Shown piece by piece: positions 1,880 through 34,300 of a stretch of 64,000 nucleotides of DNA. A program made the translations under genes and the position numbers. Within the stretch, counting starts at the first letter, position 1. Each line of letters opens with the position of its first letter. The stretch comes from Liolophura sinensis (lineage: Eukaryota > Mollusca > Polyplacophora > Chitonida > Chitonidae): the NCBI RefSeq assembly GCF_032854445.1, contig NC_088299.1:7540324-7604323 (forward strand), read 5' to 3'. Below the pieces are notes generated by a model, which saw only the letters and a program-made list of their open reading frames with translations, was not told where the DNA came from and did not search any database.

Positions 1880-4596
1880 ATGGGCACATCTTACTTAAGT
1901 GGGGCTGTTTTCATGCTGGCAACGTACCACGCCTTTTCTCAACCAACTGGAGGTAATTTGGTAATGTGGGCGTATTTATGTATTTGTTTGATTGTTATTC
2001 ACCGCGCCATGCTGTGAAATATTTCACTTATACTATTGTGTTTAGTGTTATGGTTAGAGGAAATCGGAGTGCAAGAGGAAAACTAGCGAGCTTTGGTAAG
2101 TTTCTGGCGAATTTTTGTCAAATGTGAAGTACAGATATGCACACAGTAAGGGAAGACAACGACCATACAAACGTCGTCGAATGCACATTTTCACTAAAGC
2201 CATCTCATGTACAATTAAACCGGGAAAGTGGGTGTATGAATCGAAGGTCATTTCTGTCCACATTGCAGGTAAAGCCGTGGTATCTGTATTACATTCGATC
2301 CACTTGAACTTTATCTACATATTTCACCAGAATGAATAGCTTAATGCTAGGTATCTTGCTTCTAATGTCAACACACCTCAACAGTGACTGAACTTGTCAA
2401 ATTTTGACCTACGGACGGACTTTTATTTACAAACGTTTGATTTGATTTTTTTTATTTATTTGATTGGTGTTTTACGCCATACTCAAGAATATTTCACTTA
2501 TACGACGTCGGCCAGCATTGTGGTGGAGGGAAACCATTAGATTACCAGGTATGTAGTCTGTTCTTTTCTGTGATTTATTGAAATGCAGGATTTCCTTTCG
2601 TTTATTTTGGTTTTACCTTGTTAGTTTCTCTTCCTTCCGTGTTCTTATTCAAATCAGCGTTTTTATATAAGCAGCGTCTTTTGACATGTCCACAGCAAAA
2701 ACTTACTGATTTTATGGTTGTTTAATGCCATGCACAAGAAGTTTGTCACTTGTATGACGTCTGCCCGTTTTGGCAACGGGAGACGGGAGTACCCAGCGTA
2801 ATCCATTACTAACCTTCGCCAGGTTCCTGGCAAACCTCCTTACAAAAGCTGAATTAGCGAGACCTGGGTTCGAACTTCCGACCTAAGTGGTCACGGTATT
2901 CGCAGCTACCCAGCGCTTAAACCATATAAGCGAAAAAGACGCCTGACCAATTTGAGTGTTGTTGGTATGCGGGCAGGGAAATATCTGATACCTTAACCAG
3001 TCATTCCTCCTGAAGGAGGTTTACCAAATTTTTGTAACTACCCTCCCCTGGGATTATTGTTTGCAGACTACATGGATCGTCGGTGCGGCTCGACAATCCA
3101 GCTATACCAGGGTTCCCTCTTACTGAGCCTCACCGACTCTCCGAAATACGCTCCGTACATGACTTGTGAGGTTGAGGTGGAGTCCAATGAGGGCAGAGTC
3201 ATGGTGAAGGTCATATGGATGGACATAGAGGACGGTCTACTGTGCGAATACGATCGCCTTGTTATTTATGACGGATCAAGCAAAATCAAACTTACAGGTA
3301 TGACACAGAGCAAAGGGAGGTTAGCAAATCTAGGACAATCCTGTTCCAAGCTAAGCAGACGTACATGAGGTTTATAGCTATTCTAGGGGAATCCGGCCCC
3401 AAACCAAGCACACGGAGTCTAACGGAGTGAATAACATAATCGGTACATGAAGTTAGCCTGCCTAGGAGAATCCGGCACCAATCCAAGCACCTGAATCTAA
3501 CGAGTATATAGCAGAAATGGTACTTGAGGTTGACTTGCCTAGGACAATTCCAGAAAGAGCTCTCGAGGACAATGGGGCCCCAAGACAAGTAATAAAATCA
3601 GCGTTGAACCACCGGTTTGAATCGCGAACTTGGATGATGAGAAATGGTACACGAAGTACCTGATGACATACTGTAGTTTGTTTTATCTTTATATGAAATA
3701 TTTATAGATACGGCGAAAAACACTAACTAATTAGGTAAATATAGACTGCAGATAAGCTGTTATCACTGGGAATATAATTGTACAAACTCTTCGTTTTGTG
3801 TCTCTTTCAGGACCATATATCCTTTGTGGAAATGTTGCACCAGATACTGTGTATACTTCTAACGGCACACGCATAACAATAAAGTTTACTAGTGACAGCT
3901 TTGGTCAGAACCCGGGCTTCCAATTACTCCTCACAGGGTTCAATGATAGCCGTGAGTATGCATTTTATTGGCATTCTATTATCACATGTAGTTCACCTAA
4001 TATGCATATATGTCTATTTTCAAGTTTGCTGCCATTTCCAATCTTTGCTCAAAGTTTCCCCTAAAACAAGGTCGAATTCCAATTTAAACGAAGCTTAAGC
4101 AGTAATATACATTTGGAACATTTACTTCTTTTCTGTTTTGCAATTGTATACCATCAGTATCCCAGTGTCGTAAAACCGCGATCAAACAATGGGATTTGTG
4201 ATACTGACCCGTGTAATGAAAATAGGACAAATTTATTTCAAAAACTGCATTTCAGATAGAATCAGTTATATTTCCGTTTTTGCTATTTCAAGATATTGTT
4301 CACCGCCAAGCAAAATGCCACCCTTATGATGAATGCTATTGAGTAACATTCATTCTTATTTTAAAGGTTACTGTATATCTTCTGGATTCCGGTGTAGTAA
4401 TAGATACTGCATTGATGGTCACCTGAAATGTGACGGTTACGACAACTGCGGAGACAACTCGGACGAAAGTTTCTGCTTTTTGTCCCTGCGCGGAATCGTG
4501 GGCATCAGCGTAGCTGGAGCCTATGTTCTGTTTGCTGTCGTCATTCTACTGGCTTATGGTAGAAAGAGAAAAGCAGGCCGGTATAGTTCAGTCTGA
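1880..4596 (+). CDS. CUB-LDLa-TM protein, gene 1
   Basis: Four exons: 1880-1952, 3067-3297, 3811-3951, 4367-4596, all with GT/AG borders and phase 1 junctions, giving 224 residues. Residues 1-20 form a signal peptide; this ATG was chosen because it is followed by a hydrophobic run ending at a phase-1 donor, as in the paralogues. A single CUB domain covers about 31-148 with four cysteines (RRC, MTC, LLC, ILC) and the acidic DRLVIYDG strand typical of calcium-binding CUBs. An LDL-receptor class A module covers 151-185, with six cysteines and the calcium cage [10 protein letters not shown] helix at about 191-212 is followed by only 12 basic cytoplasmic residues ([11 protein letters not shown] end), so this copy has no tail exon. 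Seen: the domains and splice sites. Known of the families: CUB and LDLa modules bind protein ligands with calcium. Inferred: cell-surface binding protein; the ligand is unknown. The order resembles NETO and LRP12 receptors but is much shorter. Confidence 0.86.
1975..2100 (-). mobile_element. SINE A, strongly diverged remnant
   Basis: Weak match to the SINE A 3' end (TGAAATATTTCACTTATACT, GTTATGGTTAGAGGAAA) inside intron 1 of gene 1. Confidence 0.5.
2449..2536 (-). mobile_element. SINE A 3' fragment
   Basis: Tail plus 80 bases of the conserved 3' end, cut off after GGTGGAGGGAAACC; in intron 1 of gene 1. Confidence 0.8.
2705..2935 (-). mobile_element. old SINE-like element
   Basis: A diverged relative with a TTTAATGCCATGCACAAGAA start and a B-box-like GGGTTCGAAC. 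The stretch at 61945-62180 has the same layout. Confidence 0.45.
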
Positions 4597-5227
4597 GGGG
4601 ATGTTAGAGCCCTATTCTATTTTCCCCACCTTAAATACCTCTGAATTTTGTATGCTTTATTAATAATGGTGTGTTTTTTAAATGACTGGATGAGTAAACA
4701 TGTTTATGACGGTGTTTTAGTTTCAATAGAAATATTCTTGATACCCGTCACCAATATACACCCGCTTAGTACGGACTGAAAGGAAACAATAATTTATTTA
4801 TCTGTGCCGTGCTGATGCAGTTTGAAAACAATGGACAAAAAGTAGATGAATGAGTTGCCCATATTTTCTCCAGTATTATTGAAACCCACCTGTGTAATGA
4901 AAAATCATGAAGATTCATTTGTTCTAATATATTACGACTGTTATTCATTACAGACCATTTCGATGGAAACAGCTAATTTTCTTGAGTCTGGAAAATATTG
5001 CACAGCATATCCTGTAGAACAGTTTACCACGCTTCATATCCGGTTCTGGGTTAAACAGCAGTGTCAAAGGTCAGCACAGTGTAAGCCGTATGAAACATAC
5101 AGTTTGTCATTTGCAGTGAAGACTACTGACCTGCAGAATGGTTTAACCTGACTTCGGCTTTCGTGGACTAAAGTATGTTCTCAGTGACGTCACCACACAG
5201 AGCCAGAGACATTACCAATCACAAACA

Positions 5228-33800: not shown

Positions 33801-34300
33801 AGAGAGAGAGAGAGAGATCTATACTTATCTGACAAGCTGAATATTGTCTGTATTTAACGATTTCATTTTATGCTGTCAGAAATCATGGCTTACTCAGGAA
33901 TTTTACTGATTGTTTTGTGCATGTAAGCCAATGTGAACGTCGTTGAGAGAGAGGGAGCTGGGATAAAATAGTAGACTTTAGAGTTACCATAAAACTGAGA
34001 TGTATGTTGGCTAATTTTGCATTCCGAACATTTCATTTAACTGAGTTTCAAAATATATAAAGGTATCCCTTACATCTGATTACACACGGGATATAACCTT
34101 TCTTATGAAAAGAATCGCAAGGGTCTATCTGTCTTTTTTGTACATAGAGACCTGACCAATGCAGCACAGTTACCAAGACAACGTACTCCACACCTGTGCA
34201 AGGCAATTACCCCAGTTACCAGCAACAACAGTACCCACCACCACCCGCCGGGGCCTACTCTCAGCCTGGACCCCTTCCTGCCGGAGCCTACCCACAATAG
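27808..34300 (+). CDS. CUB-LDLa-TM protein with Pro/Tyr-rich tail, gene 4
   Basis: Five exons: 27808-27886, 29772-30014, 31495-31629, 33365-33600, 34148-34300; phases 1,1,1,0; 281 residues, the longest of the four. Signal peptide about 1-21 (MDLLTVTTVLVACMC), CUB about 33-152 with four cysteines and DDRLTLYDG, LDLa 155-191 with NNCGDSTDEIEGC, helix about 198-219, then RRRRAR. The phase-0 tail exon adds 50 residues dominated by Pro, Gln, Tyr, Gly and Ala (QQQQYPPPPAGAYSQPG), a composition common in adaptor-binding cytoplasmic tails; no exact PPxY motif is present. The third intron holds a 27-bp minisatellite (32412-32890). A second, open copy of the tail exon lies at 36330-36542. Genes 3 and 4 are separated by 9 kb of repeats. 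Confidence 0.86.
29010..29246 (-). mobile_element. SINE A, nearly full length
   Basis: Tail to CATTGCGCCGCGCTAA in the head; in intron 1 of gene 4. Confidence 0.85.
29382..29485. repeat. GT-rich short tandem repeat
   Basis: CAATGCGTGTGTGTGTGTCTGT units in intron 1 of gene 4. Confidence 0.75.
30735..30935 (+). mobile_element. SINE A-like remnants
   Basis: Two degraded pieces: TTCTTAAGTACGATAAATCA, and GTATTCGAATCCAGCC running to CGGCGCAAAACACC. In intron 2 of gene 4. Confidence 0.45.
32412..32890. repeat. 27-bp minisatellite, about 18 copies
   Basis: GACAAATGTGATGACAACAC plus AGCATTT units in intron 3 of gene 4. The period is nine codons, so frames on both strands stay open and give artificial nine-residue repeats (DKCDDNTAL). 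Confidence 0.93.
33781..33817. repeat. (AG)n microsatellite
   Basis: Pure AG run in intron 4 of gene 4. Confidence 0.95.

Follow-up and report, generated by a model that had tools for sequence, protein, structure and literature searches.

We built gene models from open frames and GT/AG splice sites within the window, the whole 64,000-nucleotide stretch of Liolophura sinensis DNA analyzed here. The window contains split genes, has a G+C content of 35–42% per 2 kb, and yielded no Rfam families and no tRNA. Four neighboring predicted genes lie on the forward strand: A (1880–4596), B (7289–10443), C (15441–18701) and D (27808–34300). All four share a plan comprising a signal exon, a CUB domain spread over two exons, and an exon that encodes an LDLa module plus a helix. 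The predicted proteins are 224 residues for A, 218 and 233 residues up to the last donor for B and C, respectively, and 281 residues for D. This annotation of the array is well supported, and its outer limits, 1880 and 34300, are those given in the preliminary description. The features are as follows.

1880–1952, forward strand: gene A exon 1, start and signal peptide, ending in phase 1 (exon model; hydropathy, the weakest signal of the four).
3067–3297, forward strand: gene A exon 2, 5' part of the CUB (exon model; Pfam CUB).
3811–3951, forward strand: gene A exon 3, 3' part of the CUB (exon model; Pfam CUB).
4367–4596, forward strand: gene A exon 4, LDLa, helix and short tail ending RYSSV, stop (exon model; Pfam; hydropathy and residue check).
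7289–7346, forward strand: gene B exon 1, start and signal peptide (exon model; hydropathy).
8512–8751, forward strand: gene B exon 2, 5' part of the CUB, Y at the calcium-ligand position E (exon model; residue check).
9559–9696, forward strand: gene B exon 3, 3' part of the CUB, S at the calcium-ligand position D (exon model; residue check).
10226–10443, forward strand: gene B exon 4, LDLa and helix, phase-0 donor; read-through gives a stop after 7 codons (exon model; tail-exon search).
15441–15507, forward strand: gene C exon 1, start and signal peptide (exon model; hydropathy).
16406–16648, forward strand: gene C exon 2, 5' part of the CUB (exon model; Pfam).
17360–17497, forward strand: gene C exon 3, 3' part of the CUB (exon model; Pfam).
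18451–18701, forward strand: gene C exon 4, LDLa and helix, phase-0 donor; read-through gives a stop after 14 codons (exon model; tail-exon search).
27808–27886, forward strand: gene D exon 1, start and signal peptide (exon model; hydropathy).
29772–30014, forward strand: gene D exon 2, 5' part of the CUB (exon model; Pfam).
31495–31629, forward strand: gene D exon 3, 3' part of the CUB (exon model; Pfam).
33365–33600, forward strand: gene D exon 4, LDLa, helix, basic residues followed by a YTVL motif, phase-0 donor (exon model; Pfam; residue check).
34148–34300, forward strand: gene D exon 5, proline/tyrosine/glutamine-rich cytoplasmic tail, stop (exon model).
36395–36533, forward strand: decayed duplicate of the tail exon of D (tail-peptide search and DNA alignment).

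Each gene encodes exactly one CUB and exactly one LDLa. The Pfam-A CUB family passed its curated cut-off in all four proteins (A, 2.5e-11; B, 8.4e-05; C, 4.2e-14; D, 4e-13), the weakest being that of B at 23.3 bits against a cut-off of 21.4, and LDLa likewise passed in all four (3.1e-08, 1e-08, 3.1e-09 and 9e-08 for A to D). A signal peptide and a single helix are present in each by hydropathy. The four tandem single-CUB, single-LDLa membrane proteins of the preliminary description are thus borne out, with independent support from Pfam and from the repeated intron phases and places. A search of NCBIfam with the A and D proteins returned no families, and a profile search of viral contigs with the four-protein alignment gave 18 pattern matches, none of which was confirmed.

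We explored the window for further copies using HMMs of exons 2, 3 and 4 made from the A–D sequences and run on all six-frame stop-to-stop open frames of at least 20 residues. The source exons were recovered at E-values of 5.9e-22 or better, as they must be by construction, so the informative outcome is the absence of a fifth set. The next best match, at 0.084, was an antisense frame across the CUB exon of B itself, and all others scored 0.55 or worse; no extra CUB or LDLa was found at this sensitivity, which decayed or very short pieces could escape. A low-threshold tblastn of the four proteins over the window gave nothing clearly above chance outside the known exons, the best match being one to the B sequence (52718–52867, E-value 0.011) against a best of 0.03 in the reversed-window control.

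The intron layout is shared. All four genes have introns 1–3 in phase 1, and intron 2 falls at the same CUB site, where exactly four residues separate the split codon from the fourth cysteine of the domain. The repeated 1-1-1 phases described previously therefore hold throughout, but the fourth, phase-0 intron proposed alongside them is complete only in D: A reaches a stop instead, and B and C show just a phase-0 donor after the helix, at the place matching that of D. If left unspliced, B and C would end 7 and 14 codons further on. Searching with the tail peptide of D did not locate a tail exon for B or C. Downstream of these genes, phase-0 open frames of 12–140 residues behind a pyrimidine-led acceptor number one for B and seven for C; none of them is D-like, and a tail of another kind is possible.

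The same peptide search found one match besides D itself, near 36.4 kb (phmmer, 0.01; tblastn, 0.007), a region that whole-protein tblastn had not singled out (1.1). Aligned as DNA against the D exon, it reached a local score of 103 in two overlapping tiles, compared with 71 for the best tile elsewhere in the window and a mean of 38.9 (sd 8.6) over 744 tiles on both strands. A longer stretch scored 116.5, against a maximum of 82 among 200 base-shuffled versions of the region. The match carries a stop in the frame of D, and there is a frame change between its first and second halves. Exon HMMs and tblastn detected no CUB or LDLa relic adjoining it. The DNA alignment thus confirms a decayed duplicate of the tail exon, showing turnover at the locus.

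The copies differ at residues expected to matter for calcium binding. At the CUB calcium-ligand positions, which we take to follow C1s numbering, A, C and D carry E, D and D, and B carries Y, D and S; B has thus lost two of the three ligands. In the LDLa module, the acid after the fourth cysteine reads D, N, D and D in A to D, the position before the fifth cysteine reads N, N, H and N, and the later D, D and E are kept in all four.

The cytoplasmic tails also vary, those of A–C being short as far as resolved. After the helix, D reads RRRRARYTVLLS, followed by the proline/tyrosine-rich exon. Both its RRRRARYTVLL segment and the tail of A place a tyrosine, with a hydrophobic residue at +3, a few residues from the helix; this YxxPhi pattern is absent from B and C as far as their sequence is resolved. 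YxxPhi is the form of AP-binding sorting signals. The motif is short, and a lone tail tyrosine would probably fit it by chance fairly often; two motifs of such looseness are weak evidence. The S-S-V terminus of A is presumably a class I PDZ-type end.

We compared the copies with one another to gauge their age. Pairwise identity is 27–43% by exon (exons 2–4), in line with the strong divergence reported before, and it is spread across all three exon sets, including the LDLa-helix exon. Over 191–198 aligned codons per pair, differences amount to 0.66–0.69 at third positions, 0.50–0.56 at first and 0.37–0.49 at second. First and second positions differ less than third positions in all six pairs, which indicates that the proteins are under constraint, while synonymous change between copies is near saturation. 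At E-values up to 1e-3, the gene bodies share no DNA similarity except a dispersed repeat, which has 11 copies of its core and may resemble a molluscan SINE, as would fit the lophotrochozoan setting suggested by the preliminary description; there is therefore no sign of recent duplication. These patterns fit duplicates that are old or fast-evolving, rather than a fresh burst. Separately, two EF-hand open frames lie downstream on the reverse strand (37258–37812 and 39657–40292) with 81% protein identity (149/184), a pair that by all appearances is much younger than the A–D array.

Tandem arrangement and strong divergence would also suit lineage-specific recognition receptors, for immunity or symbiosis, whose divergent CUBs would recognize foreign or self ligands, with the specificities divided among the copies. 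The differing tails, the missing CUB ligands of B, and the turnover suggested by the decayed tail exon are consistent with such a family, which, if it were an immune set, would be a new receptor type for invertebrate immunity. However, the divergence is found in the LDLa-helix exon as well as in the CUB exons, the near-saturated third positions and constrained second positions suggest age rather than diversifying selection, and by eye we noticed no immune signaling motif in the tails. We consider this explanation unlikely, at about one chance in five.

We compared a profile of the four proteins to PDB sequences at 1e-5, obtaining 81 matches, of which the best 60 were examined. Megalin, which is rich in LDLa, ranked first, with E-values that overstate the likeness since they are summed over 36 matched stretches, followed among others by LRP4, cubilin, VLDLR and Neto2. 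Among these best 60 of the 81, Neto2 is alone in having its best stretch run across CUB2, LDLa and helix (profile positions 52–214 of 223). Searched singly, D (residues 61–231), C (69–205) and A (67–186, without the helix) matched Neto2. At 1e-4, B matched neither Neto nor any CUB protein through its CUB, and its 22 matches have their best stretches in the LDLa region. No one-to-one orthologue appeared among the PDB matches, a poor sample for orthologues.

These alignments raise the idea that A–D are shortened Neto-like auxiliary subunits of ionotropic receptors, corresponding to the CUB2-LDLa-helix half of Neto, and the presumed PDZ-type end of A would suit such a role. Yet Neto has two CUBs, each of A–D has one with no other CUB found in the window, and B has no Neto match. 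By whole-sequence E-value Neto2 was never the top match: cubilin stood above it for D (1.1e-19), megalin and neuropilin-1 for A, and megalin, cubilin, PCPE-1, enteropeptidase and neuropilins, among others, for C. Its ranking is weak in either direction because the PDB holds few CUB/LDLa membrane proteins. We regard a Neto-like identity as improbable. A similarly low likelihood attaches to endocytic receptors that would take up soluble or lipoprotein cargo in the manner of cubilin or the LDL receptor. Cubilin is the best PDB match of D, the LDLa modules match megalin, and the CUB calcium ligands are kept in three of the four, but a single LDLa and a single CUB would give little avidity, no NPxY was seen in the tails by eye, and the megalin scores carry the exaggeration noted above.

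It is very improbable that these exons make up a smaller number of long multi-domain genes. Although the models derive from DNA sequence alone and tail exons for B and C were not found, every unit opens with a start and signal exon of its own and includes its own helix, after which comes a stop in A and D or, in B and C, a donor with a nearby read-through stop. Joining units would mean skipping, or reading through, signal and helix exons at each of three junctions. Our models agree with the earlier view of separate small genes.

The plan itself has precedents. The preliminary description knew of no named family for a compact CUB-LDLa-helix protein, a claim that does not stand, since Drosophila CULD and, by description, Loaf have the same architecture (PMC4732287, PMC8205486, as excerpted). 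CULD (CG17352) has one CUB, one LDLa and one helix; it is found on endocytic vesicles, and the turnover of rhodopsin and TRPL depends on it (PMC4732287, in the portion available). The available text of PMC10829477 also points to CULD as a CUB-LDLa protein. Loaf (CG6024) has an extracellular CUB and LDLa and a transmembrane domain, is found mainly in endosomes, and caused no cell aggregation; control of trafficking has been proposed for it (PMC8205486, in the portion available). In these excerpts, functional descriptions of the compact plan thus concern two Drosophila proteins, both investigated in the visual system (PMC4732287, PMC8205486). Among the literature matches listed, judged by title and abstract opening, none described a CUB-LDLa tandem family in molluscs.

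By architecture, A–D match this already described membrane-protein plan. Our preferred reading, to which we give a probability of roughly 0.4, is that they form an old tandem array of CULD/Loaf-like type I trafficking co-receptors, as suggested by architecture and tail motifs. We propose that each protein would bind other membrane receptors or channels via its CUB, in a calcium-dependent manner in A, C and D, and would steer the bound partners through endocytosis and endosomes, with the cytoplasmic tails setting the route. The sequence itself shows the gene structures, the domains, which calcium-ligand positions are kept or lost, the tails and the divergence, whereas binding partners, endosomal location and function are features that we only infer. 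CUB and LDLa are common modules, so the domain order shared with CULD and Loaf may be convergent. The two missing CUB ligands of B, the LDLa N for D of the same protein, and the N/N/H/N position make A–D a poor fit to one common calcium-dependent mechanism.

A more specific proposal, which we hold to be rather unlikely, is a sorting-receptor repertoire, in which four ancient duplicates, each with a differing CUB surface and a differing cytoplasmic address, send cargo to distinct endosomal fates. The tandem would then have been kept because the CUB surfaces, calcium-bound in A, C and D and with two ligands fewer in B, pair with distinct tails; candidate addresses would be the LAMP-like terminal YxxPhi/PDZ-type end of A and the YTVL plus proline/tyrosine-rich exon of D. 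A four-copy tandem set in another animal would allow asking whether the CUB-LDLa-helix class is generally devoted to trafficking, and the ligand loss of B together with the differing tails would allow asking how the module specializes.

LRP12-type proteins have several CUB and LDLa modules, and differ in this from A–D with one of each. Neto/SOL-2 share the order of CUB, LDLa and helix but have two CUBs; the preliminary description had called Neto and LRP12 longer. Vertebrate LDLRAD2, the product of a single gene, combines one LDLa, a CUB-like region and a single helix in a small protein. The expression of ldlrad2 is covered in PMC13105053, whose available portion contains nothing on a CUB domain. 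LEV-10, treated together with SOL-2 and Neto in the part of PMC9083331 available, is like A–D a type I membrane protein with CUB and LDLa, but has five CUBs against their one. Loaf, likened here by description, has the CUB, LDLa and helix of A–D, but differs in a predicted late signal cleavage (a tag placed after H90 sits four residues past it) and in being neuronal (PMC8205486, as excerpted). CULD, likewise likened by description, has its plan in common with A–D; it is photoreceptor-enriched, whereas A–D are four tandem copies (PMC4732287, as excerpted).

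The cytoplasmic-tail exon of gene D, one of four tandem CUB-LDLa membrane-protein genes (A-D), has a decayed duplicate in the window, listed here with the other features.

36395-36533, + strand: decayed copy of the gene D tail exon
37258-37812, - strand: EF-hand open frame, one of an adjacent pair
39657-40292, - strand: EF-hand open frame, the other of the pair
57007-58365, - strand: ~450-aa open frame encoding a 7TM domain of the rhodopsin family (Pfam 7tm_1)
12743-13415, 22468-22948, 32418-32891, 34425-34685, 36657-37088: minisatellite arrays
849, 2469, 7640, 11786, 18231, 26163, 29046, 35389, 43692, 45258, 50928: SINE-like dispersed repeat copies

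The relic contains a stop in the frame of D and its two halves differ in frame; such a duplicate is a sign of gene turnover at the locus. A tblastn match to part of the B protein (52718-52867, + strand, E = 0.011, 33% identity) is weak and comparable to what the reversed-window control gave (0.03).

The SINE-like repeat core occurs in 11 copies at ≤3 mismatches, against 0 expected, with several copies in the introns and flanks of genes A-D, and intron 3 of gene D contains the minisatellite at 32418-32891 (period 27).

The two EF-hand frames share 81% protein identity and form a young tandem pair adjoining the old CUB-LDLa array. The 7TM frame, which matches Pfam 7tm_1 at 5.4e-21, is apparently an intron-poor GPCR gene.
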